Part shown: piece after piece, positions 53,810 through 62,981 of the stretch
Numbering within the stretch: the stretch's first letter is position 1
Layout of the letters: each line of letters begins with the position of its first letter
NCBI RefSeq assembly: GCF_015687155.1
Contig: NZ_JADPQF010000006.1
Coordinates: 1 to 64,000, forward strand
DNA length: 64,000 nucleotides
Direction: 5' to 3'
Source: Aliikangiella sp. G2MR2-5
GTDB lineage: Bacteria > Pseudomonadota > Gammaproteobacteria > Enterobacterales > Kangiellaceae
Notes under the pieces: generated by a model
Told to the model about the DNA's origin: nothing
The model's database searches: none
The model's input: the letters and a program-made list of their open reading frames with translations, nothing else
Translations under genes and position numbers: made by a program

Positions 53810-54310
53810 CTAATAATCAAGAAAATCGAGTTCTTCCCACTCTTCTTCGCCAAGGAGCTTGTTCAAATCAACTAATATGAGAAGCTCATTATCACGATGA
53901 GTCACTCCCTGTATAAACTTGGCCGACTCTTCGTTACCGACATTAGGAGTCGTCTCAATTTCCGACTCCTTCAGATAAACGACTTCTGCTACTGAATCAA
54001 CCAAAATACCGATTACCTGCTGATTCGTTTCAATAATAACTATTCGTGTGTTATCAGTGATCTCTATTGGAGACAATCCAAACCTTTGACACGTATCAAT
54101 TACAGTGACGACATTTCCCCGCAGATTAATAATCCCTAAAACATAGGGCGGCGCGCCAGGTACAGGAGCGATATCGGTATACCGCAAAACCTCCTGAACT
54201 TGCATTACGTTTATACCGTAGGTTTCATTTGCGAGACGAAAAGTTACCCACTGTAATACTGCATCATCATCAGTTTCTTGTTTGCCGATGAAGTTATCTT
54301 CTGTAGCCAC
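53810..54310 (-). CDS. cheW: CheW chemotaxis coupling protein
   Basis: A 166-aa scaffold protein linking methyl-accepting chemoreceptors to the CheA kinase. It has the W-V-T-F-x-L-A-N-E-T-Y-G-I opening and the P-G-A-P-x-Y-V-L-G-I-I-N-L-R-G-N-V-V segment of the CheW/SH3-like fold, and an acidic C-terminal tail. It lies 56 bp before the DUF2802 gene. The other che genes are not in the flanking 300 bp; upstream comes the trp region. Confidence 0.93.
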   Translation of the reverse strand: MATEDNFIGKQETDDDAVLQWVTFRLANETYGINVMQVQEVLRYTDIAPVPGAPPYVLGIINLRGNVVTVIDTCQRFGLSPIEITDNTRIVIIETNQQVIGILVDSVAEVVYLKESEIETTPNVGNEESAKFIQGVTHRDNELLILVDLNKLLGEEEWEELDFLDY

Positions 54311-54626
54311 GATTTCTGATCCTATGTCGTCAAAAATTTGTCAGAACACCTCAAATTCAGCGCTTACTGGATTAGAGGCAAAATCTGTACCAAAAATGGT
54401 AAAAGTGATTTTTTTTAAAGGTGAAGAGGCATAGAGTAAAGGCTCCAGCCCAGAATACCTCCTCTAAATATAGTCAATTTTCAAGATGTTGCGTTTTTTT
54501 ATGCCTTAATCATCTGAAATAACCGTTAGCTATTTAGTTAACTTGCCGCTTGACAGGGTATCTGGAGATAAGTTACTTTGCATGGCAGAAGATATTCCGA
54601 TAAATAAAACTGATTAATTAAACTCG
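54311..54626 (+). promoter_or_regulatory. Upstream region and candidate promoter of the trp operon
   Basis: 316 bp without a gene. TTGACA (54550-54555) is a perfect -35 but the hexamer 17 bp downstream (TTACTT) is a poor -10. Just upstream, TTTAGTTAACTTGC (54533-54546) shares 10 of 14 positions with the E. coli TrpR operator core ACTAGTTAACTAGT. Repressor control would be additional to the attenuators; this is weak evidence. Confidence 0.35.
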
Positions 54627-54704
54627 ATGATTAACAATACTTTTAGCAAACAAAATTTACGTTGGTGGCGCTGGCACTCAGGTGCGGGCTGCGTTATGTC
54701 TTGA
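54627..54704 (+). CDS. trpL: trp operon leader peptide 1 (Trp-Trp-Arg-Trp)
   Basis: A 25-aa frame from ATG 54627 to TGA 54702-54704. Codons 13-16 read Trp-Trp-Arg-Trp (R-W-W-R-W-H-S). Three tryptophan codons in four is the hallmark of a Trp-sensing leader peptide. When charged tRNA-Trp is scarce the ribosome should stall here and leave GCGGGCT (54684-54690) free to form an antiterminator. Otherwise the ribosome reaches the stop and covers it. There is no strong ribosome-binding site upstream, which is a weakness of the call. It is too short for ordinary gene finding. Confidence 0.82.
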   Translation: MINNTFSKQNLRWWRWHSGAGCVMS

Positions 54705-54734
54705 TTGTTGTCATTGACTGGAATACGAATTATC

Positions 54735-54771
54735 AAAAGCCCGCGAGAGAAATCAAGCGGGCTTTTTTTTT
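54735..54771 (+). terminator. trp attenuator terminator 1
   Basis: AAAAGCCCGC (54735-54744) and GCGGGCTTTT (54757-54766) pair around a 12-base loop and run into a string of T. The AGCCCGC of its left arm is fully complementary to GCGGGCT at 54684-54690 in the leader frame. Mutually exclusive terminator and antiterminator structures are therefore possible. Confidence 0.88.
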
Positions 54772-54818
54772 GGCTATCAAATTAAACTTAAGAATGATTT
54801 AACAAAGATATAGACAAC

Positions 54819-54905
54819 ATGAGTAGAAAGTTAAAACAGAACATAAACCTCGAGAATAACCAATTAGTACATTGGTGGTGGCACTCGCATAAATCGAGTG
54901 GGTAG
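54819..54905 (+). CDS. trp operon leader peptide 2 (Trp-Trp-Trp)
   Basis: A 28-aa frame from ATG 54819 to TAG 54903-54905. Codons 19-21 are three consecutive Trp (V-H-W-W-W-H-S). The sequence around the Trp codons (TTGGTGG...TGGCACTC) matches leader 1 apart from a three-base gap, which suggests duplication. A first hairpin CACTCG/CGAGTG (54882-54887 with 54895-54900) can compete with the antiterminator GAGTGGGT/GCCCGCTC (54896-54903 with 54936-54943). Confidence 0.82.
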   Translation: MSRKLKQNINLENNQLVHWWWHSHKSSG

Positions 54906-54930
54906 CTACATGTACAAAAAAAGAAATCAA

Positions 54931-54965
54931 AAAAAGCCCGCTCAAGTTTAAGCGGGCTTTTTTTT
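54931..54965 (+). terminator. trp attenuator terminator 2
   Basis: AAAAAGCCCGCT (54931-54942), an eight-base loop and AGCGGGCTTTTT (54951-54962), followed by more T, form a strong stem ending 58 bp before the DAHP synthase start. Core sequences GCCCGC/GCGGGC are the same as in terminator 1. Confidence 0.88.
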
Positions 54966-55022
54966 GCTCTGATAATTAAAGCTTTTAACCGTATTACAAC
55001 CATTTTAACTAAGGAAAAAATC

Positions 55023-56039
55023 ATGATCATAGTTCTAAAACCACAAGCCACAGAAGCAGATGCTAAAGAAATCTTGAACAAGATAGAATCGGTTAATTTA
55101 ACGCCTCTTTATATGCCAGGTACAGAAAGAATTGTACTCGGCGCTCTTGGCGATGAGCGTGTATTGAATGGATTGAATATCCAGGCTCATCCAATGGTAG
55201 AAAACGTCAAACCTATCTTAAGTAGTTACAAACAGGTAAGTCGCGAAATGCAGAGCCATGACTCTCAAGTCTCCTTCGGCAATACAGTTATCGGTGGTGG
55301 TAACTTTACAGTGATTGCCGGACCATGCGCAGTAGAAAATAGAGAGCAGATATTTCAATCAGCTGCGATAGTAAAAAAATATGGTGCTCAAGGCTTAAGG
55401 GGAGGCGCATTTAAACCTCGCACGTCTCCATATAGTTTTCAAGGGCTAGAGGAAGAAGGTTTAAAGCTCCTGCAAGAAGCATCAAAGGAGTACGGGTTAC
55501 CGTGTGTTACCGAGATTGTCGACCCTAATCACGTCGATATGATGGAAGACTATGTTGACGCATTCCAGGTTGGCGCGCGAAATATGCAAAACTTTAAACT
55601 ACTTAAAGCGGTTGGACAAAGTCAAAAACCAACTATCTTAAAGCGAGGAATGTCTGCAACAATTGAAGAGCTCCTATTAGCAGCGGAATACATCTACGCA
55701 GAAGGCAATAAAAATGTCGTGATCTGCGAACGAGGTATTCGAACTTATGAGAAAGCAACCCGCAACACTCTCGACTTAAATGCAGTCGCTTATATTAAAA
55801 CCAAGAGCCACTTGCCAGTTATTGTTGACCCATCTCATGGTACCGGTATTCGCGAACTGGTTGCTCCAATGGCAAAAGCCGCAGTTGCCTGCGGTGCCGA
55901 TGGCGTAATAGTTGAAGCTCACTACAACCCTCAAATAGCGTTATCCGATGGACAGCAATCTCTCGATGAAAATGATTTTTCCAAGTTAATGAGTGAGCTC
56001 AAACCTTTTATCGAGGCTGCAGGCAAGCGTATTGCTTAA
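55023..56039 (+). CDS. aroF: 3-deoxy-7-phosphoheptulonate (DAHP) synthase, type I-beta, trp-operon linked
   Basis: Condenses phosphoenolpyruvate and erythrose 4-phosphate, the first step to chorismate and aromatic amino acids. The 338-aa protein has a small N-terminal ferredoxin-like regulatory domain (about 1-70, as in Thermotoga-type enzymes) and a TIM-barrel with I-A-G-P-C-A-V-E, L-R-G-G-A-F-K-P-R-T-S-P-Y, the D-P-S-H-G-T-G motif and the metal site I-V-E-A-H. First gene after the two Trp attenuators, so its supply should respond to tryptophan. The allosteric effector cannot be read from sequence. AAGGA precedes the ATG. Confidence 0.92.
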   Translation: MIIVLKPQATEADAKEILNKIESVNLTPLYMPGTERIVLGALGDERVLNGLNIQAHPMVENVKPILSSYKQVSREMQSHDSQVSFGNTVIGGGNFTVIAGPCAVENREQIFQSAAIVKKYGAQGLRGGAFKPRTSPYSFQGLEEEGLKLLQEASKEYGLPCVTEIVDPNHVDMMEDYVDAFQVGARNMQNFKLLKAVGQSQKPTILKRGMSATIEELLLAAEYIYAEGNKNVVICERGIRTYEKATRNTLDLNAVAYIKTKSHLPVIVDPSHGTGIRELVAPMAKAAVACGADGVIVEAHYNPQIALSDGQQSLDENDFSKLMSELKPFIEAAGKRIA

Positions 56040-56073: not shown

Positions 56074-57714
56074 ATGAAAACATCCATCGAAAATAGACTC
56101 GGTTCAGTAAAGACCCTGTCCAAACTAATCGAGACTAACCTGGAACCACTCTCGCTTTATGAAGGAATCACAAGACAGTTGAAACTGGTCGACTCCATGC
56201 TTCTAGAGTCGAGTGAAATCGACTCCAAGGAAGAGCTAAAAAGCATAATTATGCTACAAGCAGCCCTGCGTATTGAGTGTAACGGTCGACTGGTGGTCAT
56301 AGAAGCTTCAAGCAGTAATGGAGTCAATGCTTTAAACCAGCTGGCGACGAACCTTTCATTGGAAGAAGGAATTGATACTCTCTCATCTGAGAAAAATAAA
56401 CTAGTCGTATCAATCTCCTCAAACAATGGTGTTATTGACGAAGATGAGCGTCTTAAAACAACAACGCCAATAGAGGTCTTGAGAAAGATTCAAAATGCAT
56501 TTCACAGTCAGACAAAAGATGAGTTCTCCACTTTTTTGTGTGGTGTTTTCGCCTTTGACTTTATTGCAACATTTGAAAATCTCCCCGAAGTCAGTCAGGG
56601 CACTAATAGTTGTCCCGATTATGTTTTTTATCTGGCAGAAACCCTTCTGGTTATCGACCATAAGCGGAATATTAGACGTTTGTATAGTAATCACTTTTCT
56701 GGCGAAAATGAAGAATCAACATACTTTGAAGTGGCTCGTAGATTCGAACTGTTTGAATCAACCATAAATGCTTTAGCAATGAATGGAAATATCTCTGCGA
56801 AATCCAATGAGCGAGGAGGCCAGATAAACAAACTCGGCCTTGAAATAAACCTCGATGATTCTGCTTACGCTAGTGTGGTTGAAAACCTCAAACGCAATAT
56901 TATTGCGGGCGATATATTTCAAGTAGTGCCCTCAAGAACATTTTCTCTACCTTGCCCTACTCCGATTGATAGCTACCGGCAACTTAAAAAGGCAAACCCG
57001 AGCCCCTATATGTTTTACATGAAGGACCGCGACTTTATTCTATTTGGCGCATCCCCGGAGAGTGCCTTGAAATACTCGCATGAAGATCGTGGTGTTTTAC
57101 TCTATCCCATTGCAGGAACACGGCCTCGCGGAAAGAAAACTGATGGCGAGATAGATTTAGATCTGGATGCAAGACTCGAGATAGAACTAAAACTGGATCA
57201 AAAAGAAGTTGCCGAACATATGATGCTGGTGGATCTGGCAAGAAATGATATTTCAAGGATATCAGAGCCAGGTACAACCCACCTGCCCAAACTACTATCC
57301 GTTGATCGCTATTCTCAAGTCATGCACCTGGTGTCCTGTGTTAAAGGAAAACTTCGCAGCGATCTCGATGCACTACATGCTTATCAAGCTTGCATGAATA
57401 TGGGAACCCTGACCGGCGCCCCAAAAATCAAAGCAACCGAATTAATCCGAGTAACCGAAAAAAACCGTCGAGGTAGCTACGGCGGCGCGGTTGGCTATCT
57501 TAATGGCAATGGCGATATGGATACCTGTATTGTGATCCGCTCAGCCTTTGTCAAAGAAGGAAAAGCCTATATCCAGGCCGGTGCAGGGGTAGTTTATGAC
57601 TCAGTGCCGCTTTCGGAAGCTAAAGAAACCACGAACAAAGCAATGGCTGTAATCAACGCAATTTGTGCCGCAAACGAAAAATCAGGCTCAGAAATAGACA
57701 GAGGTACGAACTAA
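56074..57714 (+). CDS. trpE: Anthranilate synthase component I
   Basis: Converts chorismate and ammonia (or glutamine via TrpG) to anthranilate, 546 aa. An N-terminal L-L-E-S-S-E-I-D-S-K-E segment matches the region that binds inhibitory tryptophan in E. coli TrpE (L-L-E-S), so feedback inhibition is likely. The C-terminal chorismate-binding domain holds P-I-A-G-T-R-P-R-G, D-L-A-R-N-D, M-G-T-L-T-G-A-P-K and A-G-A-G-V-V-Y-D-S. AAGGA is upstream. It starts 34 bp after the DAHP synthase gene. Confidence 0.96.
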   Translation: MKTSIENRLGSVKTLSKLIETNLEPLSLYEGITRQLKLVDSMLLESSEIDSKEELKSIIMLQAALRIECNGRLVVIEASSSNGVNALNQLATNLSLEEGIDTLSSEKNKLVVSISSNNGVIDEDERLKTTTPIEVLRKIQNAFHSQTKDEFSTFLCGVFAFDFIATFENLPEVSQGTNSCPDYVFYLAETLLVIDHKRNIRRLYSNHFSGENEESTYFEVARRFELFESTINALAMNGNISAKSNERGGQINKLGLEINLDDSAYASVVENLKRNIIAGDIFQVVPSRTFSLPCPTPIDSYRQLKKANPSPYMFYMKDRDFILFGASPESALKYSHEDRGVLLYPIAGTRPRGKKTDGEIDLDLDARLEIELKLDQKEVAEHMMLVDLARNDISRISEPGTTHLPKLLSVDRYSQVMHLVSCVKGKLRSDLDALHAYQACMNMGTLTGAPKIKATELIRVTEKNRRGSYGGAVGYLNGNGDMDTCIVIRSAFVKEGKAYIQAGAGVVYDSVPLSEAKETTNKAMAVINAICAANEKSGSEIDRGTN

Positions 57715-58343
57715 TGACTCAGCCATTGCAAATTATCATGATAGATAATTACGACTCTTTTACCTATAACCTGGTTAACCAACTGAAAACGCTAAACCTT
57801 GATCAAACTGTAATGCTCAAAGTTTATCGCAATGATTCACCGATAGAAATGGTATTTTCTGAAGAAAATCTGGCTGGAAAAAAGAACCTGATTGTTATTT
57901 CTCCGGGACCAGGCAACCCGCAGTCTGCCGGTAACACTTTGCAAATCATTAATAACTTTGCCGGTCGCATGCCGATTCTGGGAATATGCCTTGGACATCA
58001 ATCAATCGTTGAACATTTTGGCGGAGAAGTTTCTGGAGCATCCGAAATTATTCATGGCAAAGCGGACAATGTTTTTACATTCTCAGAGCATCCTGTTTTC
58101 GAAGGATTACCGAATCCATTTGTTGCAGCTCGCTATCACTCACTTTCGGCGTCACTAGTACCACCAACACTTGAGGTATTGGCATCAACATCAGGAAAGC
58201 ATGGCGAACAAGAAAGCTCTGAAGTTATGGCAGTTGTGCATAAAGAATACAAGATTATTGGCTTTCAATTTCATCCAGAATCCATTCTTACTACACAAGG
58301 AAAAACACTGTTGGAGAACTCGGTTCGCTGGCTTACCAGGTAA
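57714..58343 (+). CDS. trpG: Anthranilate synthase component II (glutamine amidotransferase)
   Basis: Class I glutamine amidotransferase, 209 aa, supplying ammonia to TrpE. The nucleophile cysteine is in I-L-G-I-C-L-G-H-Q-S and the His-x-Glu in F-Q-F-H-P-E-S-I-L-T. The N-terminal I-D-N-Y-D-S-F-T-Y-N-L-V is family-typical. The ATG at 57714 overlaps the trpE stop (TAATG), indicating coupling. It is a stand-alone TrpG, not fused to TrpD as in E. coli. Confidence 0.95.
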   Translation: MTQPLQIIMIDNYDSFTYNLVNQLKTLNLDQTVMLKVYRNDSPIEMVFSEENLAGKKNLIVISPGPGNPQSAGNTLQIINNFAGRMPILGICLGHQSIVEHFGGEVSGASEIIHGKADNVFTFSEHPVFEGLPNPFVAARYHSLSASLVPPTLEVLASTSGKHGEQESSEVMAVVHKEYKIIGFQFHPESILTTQGKTLLENSVRWLTR

Positions 58344-58404: not shown

Positions 58405-59427
58405 ATGAATAATTTACTAAACAAAGTCTTTCAAAAAGAAAGTTTGTCTGAAAACGAATCCTTTGAACTGTTCAAACAGTTTGTTAAAGGAGAGCAAGAC
58501 AATATCAATATAACAGCCTTTCTGGTGGCACTAAAAATGAAGGGAGAGACCCCAGAAGAAGTGTGTGGTGCAGCCAGAGCTCTGGCTAGCGAGGCAGGTG
58601 ATTTCGAAAAACCAGATTATGCGATTGCCGATAGTTGTGGTACCGGAGGAAGCGGAAAGCATACTTTGAATATATCGACATTGGTCTCATTCATCGCCGC
58701 AGCAGGAGGCTTGAGTGTTGCAAAACATGGTAACCGTTCTGTATCCAGTAAGTGCGGTTCAGCCGACGTGCTTTCCCAGCTCGGCGTCAAAATTGATATG
58801 ACGCCTCATACAGCGAGACAATGTCTCGACCAGACAGGAGTTAGTTTCCTATTTGCCCCGCTTTACCATTCGGGTGTTAAACATGTAATGCCAGTAAGAA
58901 ATGCATTAAAAACGCGAACCATATTTAATCTGCTTGGACCGCTGATTAATCCGGCAAAACCAGAGTTCCAGTTAATGGGCGTTTATTCACCCGAATATTG
59001 TTATGCTGCAGCTGAATCTCTTCGACTCTCAGGTTGTAAAGCTGCAATGGTTGTTAACAGCGCTGGATGCGATGAAATCACTCTGGCAGCGCCAACCCGT
59101 GCAGCAATTCTTAAAGATGGAAAAATCTCAGAAGTTACCTTTACACACGCTGACTTTGGCTTGCCACAGGTTCCTCTTGGTGCTTTACTTGGTGGCTCTC
59201 CGCAAGAAAATGCCAGCCAGTTTGTTAGCTTGCTGCAAGGCAAAAGTGAAATGCCAATAATTGATACAGTCGCGGCCAACGCAGGCGCGCTCTTCTATAT
59301 ATGCGGGAAGGCGTCTTCATTGGCCGAAGGTGTCGAACAAGCCAAATCGATTATTTCTCAAGGACTCGGCTTTGAAAAATTGTTGGCATTAAAAGAGTTA
59401 TCACAAAGCGCAGAGGAGATCGCATGA
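58405..59427 (+). CDS. trpD: Anthranilate phosphoribosyltransferase
   Basis: Transfers phosphoribose from PRPP to anthranilate, 340 aa. Motifs: D-S-C-G-T-G-G-S-G-K-H-T-L-N-I-S-T (PRPP site), K-H-G-N-R-S-V-S-S-K-C-G-S-A-D, and R-T-I-F-N-L-L-G-P-L-x-N-P. It starts 61 bp after trpG and overlaps the next gene by four bases. Confidence 0.96.
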   Translation: MNNLLNKVFQKESLSENESFELFKQFVKGEQDNINITAFLVALKMKGETPEEVCGAARALASEAGDFEKPDYAIADSCGTGGSGKHTLNISTLVSFIAAAGGLSVAKHGNRSVSSKCGSADVLSQLGVKIDMTPHTARQCLDQTGVSFLFAPLYHSGVKHVMPVRNALKTRTIFNLLGPLINPAKPEFQLMGVYSPEYCYAAAESLRLSGCKAAMVVNSAGCDEITLAAPTRAAILKDGKISEVTFTHADFGLPQVPLGALLGGSPQENASQFVSLLQGKSEMPIIDTVAANAGALFYICGKASSLAEGVEQAKSIISQGLGFEKLLALKELSQSAEEIA

Positions 59428-60950
59428 TGACTTCAGCGTCTAACATAGCCTCAGAAGATGCTGCAGTTTCTAGTGTGCACCTGACTCTATCCGCTCAATT
59501 CGATAACGTACTGGCCAAAATAGTTGAAGATAAAAAAGTTGAAGTTGCCACGCGCATGCAACATATGCCAATCGATGAATTAAAAAAAGACTTGGCAAAA
59601 TCTACTCGTAGCCTTGAAAAAGCAATGGGTAATTCCGGTGCAGACTTTATTCTCGAATGTAAAAAAGCTTCGCCATCGAAGGGACTTATTCGAGAAGACT
59701 TCAATCTCGATGAAATTCTGGCCGATTACCGAGACTTTGCCAGCGCCATTTCTGTATTGACAGACAATAAGTACTTTCAAGGACAGTTTACTTATTTAAA
59801 AAAAGCGAGCGAACAAACTGAACTTCCGATTCTTTGCAAAGACTTTTTTATTGATCCTTATCAGGTGTACGAAGCGAGATATCATGGGGCCGATGCAATA
59901 CTGCTAATGCTTTCAGTGTTAGATAACGAACAATACCAGTTGCTTGCTTCCATAGCTCAATCCTTATCGCTTGATGTATTGACCGAAGTTCACTCTGAGC
60001 AAGAGCTTGAACGAGCTCTCGCCTTAGGCGCAAAAATTATTGGTATAAACAACCGAAATCTAAAAGACTTATCGATAGATTTGGCGACAACTGAAAGTCT
60101 GGTATCGATGATTCCTGAAGATCGAATTGTAATTTCCGAGTCAGGCATTTCTACTCATAATGACATAAAGCGTCTGGCTCCAGTGGTAGATGGCTTTTTG
60201 GTGGGCTCGAGTATTATGCAGCAACGGAATATTCGCCACCACTTAAAATCGTTGATTTTTGGCAACATAAAAATCTGCGGTCTGACTAAGCCAGAGGACG
60301 CAGTGAATGTGGATCTGGCAGGCGGCAATTATGGAGGACTGGTATTCTTTCCTCCGTCTAAACGACACTTAACCATTGAACAGGCACAGACGATTACCGC
60401 CGCCGCGCCACTAAGATACGTCGGCGTTTTTGTTGATGAGGAAGCAGATTCCCTCGTAACAATCGCCAAAGCTCTCAATCTTTACGCGGTTCAACTACAT
60501 GGAAATGAAGATGCGGCCTATGTTAAGACGATAAGAGACAAGCTGGATCATCTGGGCCTCGAAGGTATTCAGATCTGGAAAGCAATAAGAGTTGAGCAAT
60601 CCATCGCTTTTACTCCTGATGACAATATTAATCAATATTTGTTAGATGCGTTTCATCCGACAGAGCGAGGTGGATCTGGAGAAGCCTTCGACTGGTCTTT
60701 GTTAGCGTCGCTTGATTCCATGTTGGAGAAGCAATTTATGGAAAAACAGAAATTTATTCTAGCGGGCGGTATTGATGAGCAAAACCTGGCTCAGGCACTA
60801 GACCTCGATCTGTATGCGCTAGATCTTAGCTCCGGCGTTGAATCTTCTCCCGGAGAAAAGTCGCCACACAAAATAGATGCATTTTTTAAAAAATTAAGTC
60901 AGGAAATCAGTAAGGCTCGCGATCAGCTTACTGCCAATTCGAATAGTTAA
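59424..60950 (+). CDS. trpC: Bifunctional indole-3-glycerol phosphate synthase / phosphoribosylanthranilate isomerase (TrpCF)
   Basis: Two successive enzymes of tryptophan synthesis in one 508-aa chain. The IGPS half (about 25-280) carries F-I-L-E-C-K-K-A-S-P-S-K-G, L-C-K-D-F-F-I-D and I-S-E-S-G-I. The TrpF half (about 282-490) begins with I-K-I-C-G-L-T and has V-G-V-F-V-D, V-Q-L-H-G-N-E-D and F-I-L-A-G-G-I. The ATG at 59424 overlaps the trpD stop (ATGA); GGAG lies before it. An extra ~25 residues precede the IGPS core. Fused TrpCF is typical of enterobacteria and vibrio relatives. Confidence 0.95.
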   Translation: MMTSASNIASEDAAVSSVHLTLSAQFDNVLAKIVEDKKVEVATRMQHMPIDELKKDLAKSTRSLEKAMGNSGADFILECKKASPSKGLIREDFNLDEILADYRDFASAISVLTDNKYFQGQFTYLKKASEQTELPILCKDFFIDPYQVYEARYHGADAILLMLSVLDNEQYQLLASIAQSLSLDVLTEVHSEQELERALALGAKIIGINNRNLKDLSIDLATTESLVSMIPEDRIVISESGISTHNDIKRLAPVVDGFLVGSSIMQQRNIRHHLKSLIFGNIKICGLTKPEDAVNVDLAGGNYGGLVFFPPSKRHLTIEQAQTITAAAPLRYVGVFVDEEADSLVTIAKALNLYAVQLHGNEDAAYVKTIRDKLDHLGLEGIQIWKAIRVEQSIAFTPDDNINQYLLDAFHPTERGGSGEAFDWSLLASLDSMLEKQFMEKQKFILAGGIDEQNLAQALDLDLYALDLSSGVESSPGEKSPHKIDAFFKKLSQEISKARDQLTANSNS

Positions 60951-60974: not shown

Positions 60975-62150
60975 ATGACAAAATTAAACCGATACTTTGG
61001 CCAGTTTGGCGGAATGTATGTACCGGAACTCCTGGTACCCGCCCTCTTACAGCTGGAAGAAGCTTTTATAAGTGCAATGGATGATGAAAGCTTTCACCAG
61101 GAATTTTCCGGTCTTTTGAAAAACTATGCCGGACGTCCTACTCCGCTGACATTGACTCGAAACCTGTCTCCCAATGATAAAGTCAAAATTTATCTGAAAC
61201 GAGAAGATCTTCTGCACGGCGGTGCCCACAAAACCAATCAGGTTTTAGGGCAGGCCTTGCTTGCTAAAAGAATGGGTAAAACCGAGATTATCGCCGAAAC
61301 CGGTGCAGGTCAGCATGGTGTTGCTACTGCAATTGCCTGCTCACTACTTGGTCTTAAATGCCGAATTTATATGGGCGAAGTCGATGTTAAGAGACAACAG
61401 CCTAATGTCTTTCGAATGGAGCTTATGGGCGCAGAAGTTATTCCCGTATCAGCTGGAAGCGGTACTTTAAAGGATGCAGTCAATGAAGCCCTTAGGGATT
61501 GGTCAGCCTCCTACAAAACCAGCCATTACCTTTTGGGAACTGCTGCGGGTCCACACCCCTTCCCTACCGTCGTGCGCGAGTTTCAACGAATGATCGGTCA
61601 AGAGGTCCATTCACAAATCATTGAAGCTGAAGGCAGGTTACCGGATTACGCAATTGCCTGCGTTGGCGGAGGCTCAAATGCCATTGGTTTGTTTGCCGAC
61701 CTGATAGAGCACGAGTCGATCCAACTGGTTGGCGTTGAACCTGCTGGTAAAGGACTGGATACTAATCAGCATGGCGCTACTCTTTGCAAGGGAACCCTTG
61801 GAATACTCCATGGTTCACACACTTATGTTATGCAAAATGAAGAAGGACAAATTGAAGAGTCCTACTCAGTTTCCGCCGGTTTGGACTATCCCGCAGTTGG
61901 TCCTCAGCACTCCTATCTAAAGGATACGGGTCGAGTACAATATGAGGCCGTAACTGATGAAGAGGCACTTGCCGCTTTCCAGCAACTATCCAGAAGCGAA
62001 GGAATTATACCGGCCCTCGAATCATCTCATGCGCTAGCTTATGCACTAAAACTAGCGGCACAACTTAATAGAGAAGCCATTATTGTCGTTAATTTATCAG
62101 GGCGTGGCGATAAAGATCTCGCCCATGTCAGAAACATACTGGACGCCTGA
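60975..62150 (+). CDS. trpB: Tryptophan synthase beta chain
   Basis: PLP-dependent beta subunit that joins indole and serine, 391 aa. The PLP lysine is in [16 protein letters not shown]. The phosphate loop is [21 protein letters not shown] contains the catalytic glutamate. It starts 24 bp after trpC with no overlap. Confidence 0.97.
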
Positions 62151-62159
62151 GGAACTGTT

Positions 62160-62981
62160 ATGAGTCAAAAATATACCGAAAGATATGCGAAAAGTTTTGA
62201 TCAACTGAGACGAAATAGCCAGGGAGCGTTTGTCCCTTTTGTAATGCTGGGCGACCCGGACCTGGAAAGTTGTTATGAAATTATAGTAACTCTTATCGAA
62301 AACGGGGCTGATGCGCTTGAACTGGGTATTCCGTTTTCGGATCCGATTGCCGATGGCCCAGTGATTCAAAAGGCTGCTATTAGAGCACTAAAAAATGGCG
62401 CAACCGTCGCTCGCTGTTTTGATTTGATAGCAAAAGTCAGACAATCTTATCCTCAAGTCCCTATTGGCTTACTCGTATACTCAAATCTGGTGGTAGGTAA
62501 CTCAATCGATGGCTTCTATCAGCAGGCTGCTATTGCAGGTGTCGACTCAGTATTGGTTGCAGATGTACCCACTATTGAAGCGGAAGTTTTTGTAGAAACA
62601 GCAGAAAAATACGGAATTGCACCGATATTTATCGCAACACCAAATGCAAATGAAGAAACCATTAAACGGATCGCACAGCTCTCCAAAGGCTATACCTATT
62701 TACTAAGTCGAGCGGGGGTAACAGGCACTGAAGTAAAAGCTGAAATGCCACTAGGACAGATTCTAAGTGCACTTGAAAAATATTCAGCACCACCAACACT
62801 GCTTGGTTTTGGGATATCCGAGCCGGCCCAGGTCAGCGCAGCTATTAATAATGGCGCATTCGGTGCAATCAGTGGCTCGGCTGTCGTAAAAATCATCGAG
62901 GACCAGCTGAATAACCGCTCGCATATGACCGAAAAACTTGCAGAGTTTGTAAGGGGCATGAAACTGGCAACGCAAAAATAG
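62160..62981 (+). CDS. trpA: Tryptophan synthase alpha chain
   Basis: Releases indole from indole-3-glycerol phosphate, 273 aa, TIM barrel. The catalytic glutamate lies in F-V-P-F-V-M-L-G-D-P-D and the aspartate in L-E-L-G-I-P-F-S-D-P-I-A-D-G-P. The phosphate-binding loops are G-F-G-I-S-E-P and A-I-S-G-S-A-V-V. Last gene of the operon. Confidence 0.97.
   Translation: MSQKYTERYAKSFDQLRRNSQGAFVPFVMLGDPDLESCYEIIVTLIENGADALELGIPFSDPIADGPVIQKAAIRALKNGATVARCFDLIAKVRQSYPQVPIGLLVYSNLVVGNSIDGFYQQAAIAGVDSVLVADVPTIEAEVFVETAEKYGIAPIFIATPNANEETIKRIAQLSKGYTYLLSRAGVTGTEVKAEMPLGQILSALEKYSAPPTLLGFGISEPAQVSAAINNGAFGAISGSAVVKIIEDQLNNRSHMTEKLAEFVRGMKLATQK

Follow-up and report, generated by a model that had tools for sequence, protein, structure and literature searches.

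Attenuation of the trp operon is a textbook case of RNA control and is drawn with a single leader and a single terminator. The stretch of DNA analyzed here (the window, 64,000 nucleotides of Aliikangiella sp. G2MR2-5) raises the question of whether two complete attenuators for the same amino acid can stand in series before one trp operon and, if so, what a second gate would contribute.

Two Trp-Rich Units Upstream of a DAHP Synthase-First Operon

The locus lies between a divergent cheW-type gene and the start of the DAHP synthase gene at 55023 (Table 1). A promoter-like site comes first, followed by two Trp-rich frames, each with its own GC-rich hairpin and T-run on the 3' side. The two short frames had been noticed in an earlier sequence-only reading, and their coordinates and peptides proved correct. 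Because the cheW-type gene is transcribed in the opposite direction, neither terminator can serve it. Among the structural genes, NCBIfam support covers DAHP synthase, TrpE and TrpCF, and trpG, trpD, trpB and trpA were named by recognition of the sequence. A second DAHP-synthase-like match was observed elsewhere in the genome (C1:425686-426390, minus strand, 48% identity) inside an open frame of 716 aa that may encode a fusion protein; long frames resembling it were also present in G001, G003, G015 and G018.

Table 1. Coordinates of the leader units and of the surrounding genes in the window.
Feature	Position	Strand	Basis or remark
cheW-type gene	53810-54310	minus	NCBIfam match under its cut-off
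Probable sigma-70 promoter (TTGACA, 18 nt, TACTTT)	54550-54579	+	Top promoter-like site 5' of leader 1, score 10.9
Leader peptide 1, W-W-R-W, MINNTFSKQNLRWWRWHSGAGCVMS	54627-54704	+	Frame and same-position counterparts in relatives
Unit 1 pause-type hairpin (segments 1:2)	54668-54694	+	Fold; overlaps the Trp codons
Unit 1 segment 2 (antiterminator left arm)	54684-54690	+	Partner 54738-54744
Unit 1 intrinsic terminator (segments 3:4 and T-run)	54735-54771	+	Stem 54735-54766, T-run to 54771
Leader peptide 2, W-W-W, MSRKLKQNINLENNQLVHWWWHSHKSSG	54819-54905	+	Frame and same-position counterparts in relatives
Unit 2 pause-type hairpin core (segments 1:2)	54881-54899	+	Fold; outer stem includes the Trp codons
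Unit 2 segment 2 (antiterminator left arm)	54896-54903	+	Partner 54936-54943
Unit 2 intrinsic terminator (segments 3:4 and T-run)	54929-54965	+	Stem about 54929-54964
DAHP synthase (3-deoxy-7-phosphoheptulonate synthase), first structural gene	55023-56039	+	NF006421, 482.8 bits, and TIGR01361, 388.7 bits, both above cut-off
trpE	56074-57714	+	TIGR00565, 626.3 bits, above cut-off
trpG	57714-58343	+	Start inferred, open frame from 57663; sequence recognition
trpD	58405-59427	+	Sequence recognition
trpCF fusion	59424-60950	+	NF006945, 622.4 bits, above cut-off
trpB	60975-62150	+	Sequence recognition
trpA	62160-62981	+	Sequence recognition

The hairpin and T-run expected 3' of each frame were both recovered, with predicted stabilities of −18.0 kcal/mol for terminator 1 (54735-54771) and −19.7 kcal/mol for terminator 2 (54929-54966), each more stable than all 200 of its shuffles. 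The proposed pairing of an upstream segment with the left arm of each terminator was likewise confirmed, with GCGGGCT (54684-54690) facing AGCCCGC (54738-54744) over 7 bp in unit 1 and GAGTGGGT (54896-54903) facing GCCCGCTC (54936-54943) over 8 bp, including two G-U pairs, in unit 2. When the sequence in between was mononucleotide-shuffled 100 times, the best pairing of segments 2 and 3 (2:3), scored as 7 bp in both units, was equalled once for unit 1 and four times for unit 2. The Rfam Trp_leader model, proposed as a check in the sequence-only reading, matched both units, but only unit 2 (54870-54965, 42.1 bits) exceeded the curated cut-off of 41 bits, with unit 1 (54657-54770, 28.1 bits) falling below it. 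A weak match elsewhere in the genome (C1:1495483-1495568, 29.9 bits) was set aside, there being no W.?W frame on the scanned strand of its 3-kb locus.

A detector requiring a leader frame with W.?W and a terminator beginning at most 160 nt further on called nothing in 2000 dinucleotide-shuffled versions of the 610-nt region. Applied to the reverse strand, it gave a single unit among 40 family regions and a single unit among 100 from other families. As a whole leader, unit 2 folded better than all of its shuffles (z −4.1, 0/200 as good) and unit 1 beat them weakly (z −1.75, 7/200). Stretches of the window ending before the right terminator arm were no better folded than shuffles (z 0.5 for unit 1, −1.1 for unit 2), and the minimum-energy fold of unit 2 before its terminator was the 1:2 hairpin, not the 2:3 pairing. 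Searches of the leader peptides against Pfam and NCBIfam returned no family above cut-off, with one sub-cut-off DUF346 match to leader 2.

Conservation in the Kangiellaceae

The family sample consisted of 40 Kangiellaceae genomes, all of which contain DAHP synthase; the locus of G006 was cut by a contig end, leaving 39 that could be evaluated. Both Trp-rich leaders and both terminators were kept in 33 of the 39. The second leader of G019 has a GTG start. One unit was lost or degraded in the other six: G002, G021 and G024 have one unit each, G015 has one terminator after a frame-broken leader, and G007 and G008 retain two terminators with a second leader that, read by eye, has a single Trp. Two gates are therefore not indispensable. 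Trp_leader matches were found in 51 of 61 relatives' genomes, but only 7 of the 61 were at the Rfam cut-off or above, and six relatives (G009, G011, G020, G022, G027, G050) had paired matches. The possibility that one unit senses a second amino acid was rejected, as Trp runs are kept in both units of all 33 family genomes with the tandem arrangement. A GTCCAGGGATGGACTGTATG-like repeat was also observed in copies directly after the last trp terminator in G018 (L046 / L026, several in a row), G024 (L048) and G021 (L049).

The best match in another genome was the same-position unit for 61 of 66 family units (32/33 first, 29/33 second), and the neighbouring unit in the same genome was the best match for none of the 82 units from 41 tandem genomes of this and other families. 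The pair is thus probably old in the Kangiellaceae. The units had been described as looking duplicated, and the two in the window do align above chance (score 109.5, against a mean of 60 and a maximum of 86 in 500 mononucleotide shuffles), but each resembles the same-position unit of another genome more closely than it does the unit beside it, which makes a recent duplication the less likely reading. Mean identities separate the classes only slightly, at 79.7% for neighbours within a genome, 79.5% and 80.0% for same-position units across genomes and 78.6% for different-position units.

Antiterminator Pairing and Ribosome Geometry

Among the Kangiellaceae tandem genomes, 2:3 pairing reached at least 6 bp in 29/32 first and 22/33 second units, and the best pairing averaged 7.1 and 6.5 bp, respectively; second-unit antiterminators were short, at 5 bp in 11 of 33. 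Mutually exclusive, stall-dependent antiterminators were predicted in both units, with weaker support for the second, where pairing reached p ≤ 0.05 against 100 mononucleotide shuffles in 16/33 compared with 28/32 first units. Segment 2 also covaries with the C or T that follows CCCG in segment 3 (68 C-G, 1 C-A, 0 T-G and 5 T-A; Fisher p 3.7e-7, uncorrected for relatedness, with 10 of 84 rows excluded whose partner base was a different one or was lacking). Nine first units have CCCGT in place of CCCGC in the terminator arm; segment 2 has A for G in five of these, from three genera, and no matching base in four, and the other terminator arm changes accordingly in eight of the nine.

Segment 2 begins 15-31 nt past the first Trp codon in the Kangiellaceae and would therefore be free when a ribosome is stalled at that codon. 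With the first Trp codon placed in the A site, it was free in every one of the 69 family units counted, of which 36 were first or sole and 33 second; in 60 of them it was overlapped by a ribosome at the stop codon (35/36 first or sole, 25/33 second). When a ribosome stalled at the first Trp codon was imposed on the folding, segment 3 paired upstream in 33/33 first and 30/33 second units, compared to 7/33 and 1/33 with the ribosome at the stop. Minimum-energy folds without a ribosome, which ignore folding order, still had segment 3 paired upstream in 28/33 first and 28/33 second units, and these predicted structures run counter to the simple rule that an untranslated leader terminates. Unit 2 of the window fits that rule, with 0 upstream pairs in the ribosome-free fold.

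Rfam matches, conservation and covariation together support the earlier proposal of tandem Trp attenuators before one trp operon, and from the sequence it appears likely that the region comprises two complete ribosome-mediated attenuators, both sensing charged tRNA-Trp, in series on one transcript before DAHP synthase-trpEGD(CF)BA. A less probable explanation, which we would give roughly the standing of an outside chance, is that only the second unit, next to the structural gene, regulates and that the first is a fading relic or a near-constant terminator. Such decay would be in line with the six family genomes that retain only one full unit, and with the window itself, where unit 1 is below the Rfam cut-off and its leader has neither a Shine-Dalgarno (SD) motif nor the leaderless layout of most of its relatives (see below). 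A relic, however, would not be expected to keep Trp runs, a terminator and the better antiterminator of the two, as first units do, or to find its best match in another genome's first unit (32/33), and in G007 and G008 the single-Trp leader belongs to the second unit.

Promoters and Translation Starts

Promoter-like sites were scored with weights devised in this analysis; a simple consensus scan did not list the site at 54550-54579. Scores of at least 9 were obtained before leader 1 in all 41 tandem regions and between the units in one (G020), and the medians of the best scores were 11.6 and 4.9, respectively. From these scores we infer a single promoter for both units, with transcription in the window starting near 54586. 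A parallel arrangement with two promoters, in which one transcript would pass through both units and another through unit 2 alone, could be entertained for G020, but given the low scores between units elsewhere and the mere 47 nt from terminator 1 to leader 2 in the window, we consider it highly improbable.

Of the 38 Kangiellaceae genomes with a unit, 31 have a promoter-like site scoring at least 9 that ends 5-8 nt before an in-frame ATG of leader 1 (G029 and G033 among the 31 have another site with a higher score), a layout suggesting that the first leader is probably leaderless in most of the family. For leader 1 of the window a leaderless start was rejected, as its ATG lies 47 nt past the −10 element; the 5' untranslated stretch would be about 40 nt, and six other family members are also non-leaderless. 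Three of these seven (G002, G021, G024) have a single unit only, and their promoter-like site lies 52-55 nt from the leader (G002, L050; G024, L048; G021, L049), as though deletion of unit 1 had brought unit 2 up to the promoter. The window also contains, at 54582-54617, an ATG 2 nt past the −10 element that opens an 11-codon Trp-free frame, in frame with leader 1 and closed by TAA, which may be a remnant of the leaderless start of its relatives.

The missing strong ribosome-binding sites, raised earlier as the main caveat, are a property of most leaders in the family: an SD-like 4-mer was absent from 32/33 first and 28/33 second leaders of the tandem genomes, and an SD-like motif was present at 37/40 DAHP synthase starts. 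This is a weak objection, because of 69 genomes from outside the family in which one unit was detected, 42 also lacked the motif. Neither leader of the window has an SD motif, and both are putatively translated. That unit 1 is mainly the source of a trans-acting small RNA or peptide, with attenuation left to unit 2, is suggested by the leaderless geometry of the 31 genomes, by the ending WW(W)HVT shared by most first peptides of genus g5 and by the attenuated leaderless trpL RNA of Sinorhizobium meliloti, which is described as starting at the ATG and acting in trans (PMC7298713), but seems very doubtful for first units that keep the parts of a cis-attenuator throughout the tandem set, including an antiterminator of at least 6 bp in 29/32 and the stall geometry.

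TrpR and Occurrence in Other Families

The PF01371 profile gave no match to TrpR in the window genome and none above cut-off in the 40 Kangiellaceae genomes, with one sub-cut-off match within a 324-aa frame; the E. coli control was detected. Across the order sample, TrpR was above cut-off in 74 of 197 genomes (taken as the same set, as labels agree where given), none of them tandem.

To place the tandem units in a wider context, the region 5' of trpE was surveyed in 100 genomes from 24 other families of the order (f-numbers are arbitrary labels), four of the regions being shortened by contig ends (G038, G048, G072, G087). Tandem units were found in 10 genomes of four families, none with TrpR above cut-off. 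Eight were called by script, and two were added by eye: G039 (f4), with a bulged second stem, and G113 (f15), with a short T-run. Two units were present in 3/3 genomes of f14 and, by script, in 4/5 of f15; in f13 they were present in G075, the region of G048 was shortened and the third genome had no DAHP synthase match. Two units occurred in 10 of the 14 unit-bearing operons that begin with DAHP synthase and in none of 63 others, a contrast slightly favoured by uneven reading by eye, which covered all six DAHP-first genomes with one unit by script (G039, G068, G113, G166, G178, G190) and only 13 of the 63 others. TrpR is present in just one DAHP-first genome, G068, and this genome has only one unit. 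In a DAHP synthase tree, f15 grouped with f6 and f7 with less than full support (84/98), and deeper branches were not resolved.

Survey genomes with one unit comprised 47 without and 20 with TrpR; of the 57 surveyed genomes that have a unit but no TrpR, 47 thus have a single attenuator. Absence of TrpR accompanies tandem units and does not explain them, and with these 47 genomes a general rule that tandem units compensate for missing TrpR was not established.

The leaderless layout was seen in f4 (1/1), f13 (1/1) and f14 (3/3), in none of five f15 genomes and in 1 of 67 from the remaining families. In another order of the same class, G340 (L186), read by eye, has a single WWWW unit 5' of DAHP synthase in this same layout, with TTGACA-17-TACAGT 7 nt before an in-frame ATG. 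Families with one attenuator often have a second Trp-containing mini-ORF between the attenuator and the first structural gene, with no detected terminator (loci among L081-L120). A MLTTKVKSWFIWWLQPIYAG type with conserved residues was present in 6 of 11 f7 genomes with a unit (G042, G108, G166, G178, G190, G221), NWRW, SWRW or CWRW types in 5/6 f11 and 3/3 f12 genomes, and WRW in 2/5 of f25. This mini-ORF is possibly another sensor, acting on translation.

Proposed Mechanism

In the proposed serial arrangement, RNA polymerase starting near 54586 would reach gate 1, and only complexes that read through would reach gate 2. When Trp-tRNA is plentiful, the ribosome would pass the Trp codons to the stop and mask segment 2, and the 3:4 terminator would form; when Trp is scarce, it would stall on the TGG run, segment 2 would pair with segment 3 and the terminator would be blocked. 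If q1 and q2 are the fractions passed by the two gates, operon read-through would be q1 × q2, with a lower basal leak and with log-sensitivities that add, as a matter of arithmetic and not of data. The steeper or wider response anticipated by the sequence-only reading could follow from two such gates.

In TrpR-less genomes, serial gates could replace repressor control, and two gates might restore a switch-like response without a repressor. More tentatively, the arrangement may represent an RNA-only replacement of repressor plus attenuator by two unlike gates for one signal, a leaderless leader readable once its 5' end emerges and a second gate needing fresh internal initiation, such that full opening would mean Trp-tRNA being short at two readings. 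This replacement would be tied to TrpR-less genomes and to trp operons with a captured shikimate entry enzyme; we regard this broader view as conceivable, though on balance somewhat doubtful. A conserved two-gate version without TrpR would be a natural experiment on the dynamic range and steepness of RNA-only control.

Comparison With Known Systems

The units share the Trp-codon leader, pause hairpin, antiterminator, terminator and trp operon of the E. coli trpL type (Rfam RF00513). Unlike that single type, the system described here has two serial units, a DAHP-synthase-first operon, no TrpR found and a first leader that is probably leaderless in most relatives. Serial RNA gates before a biosynthetic gene are also known from tandem T-boxes and tandem riboswitches. 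T-box and riboswitch gates bind tRNA or a metabolite directly, whereas the sensor here would be the translating ribosome. A tandem riboswitch is mentioned for metE of B. clausii (PMC3641672). Modelling has tied how steeply attenuation responds to regulatory codon number and to a synchronous start of ribosome and polymerase (PMC1183508), and B. subtilis, with attenuation alone, is reported to change trp transcription gradually, compared with the switch-like response of E. coli, with regulated initiation plus attenuation (PMC13178558).

Among the titles and abstracts listed in searches of an open-licence library, we found no earlier report of two leader-peptide attenuators for the same amino acid in series; an earlier mention in subscription papers is possible. 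Two predicted attenuator units are described in the PHE/TYR supraoperon of Streptococcus pneumoniae (PMC1173090). The Salmonella mgtCBR leader also has two attenuating short ORFs, which are described as sensing different signals, proline and ATP (PMC3641672), whereas here both ORFs contain Trp codons. A known parallel to the leaderless first units is the trpL of the alphaproteobacterium S. meliloti, where one unit is described, the trp leader RNA likewise starts at the ATG and the operon is not repressed (PMC7298713); the window's own species differs in not being leaderless. The Kangiellaceae system would also be a natural experiment on whether leaderless leader peptides alter the race between ribosome and polymerase.
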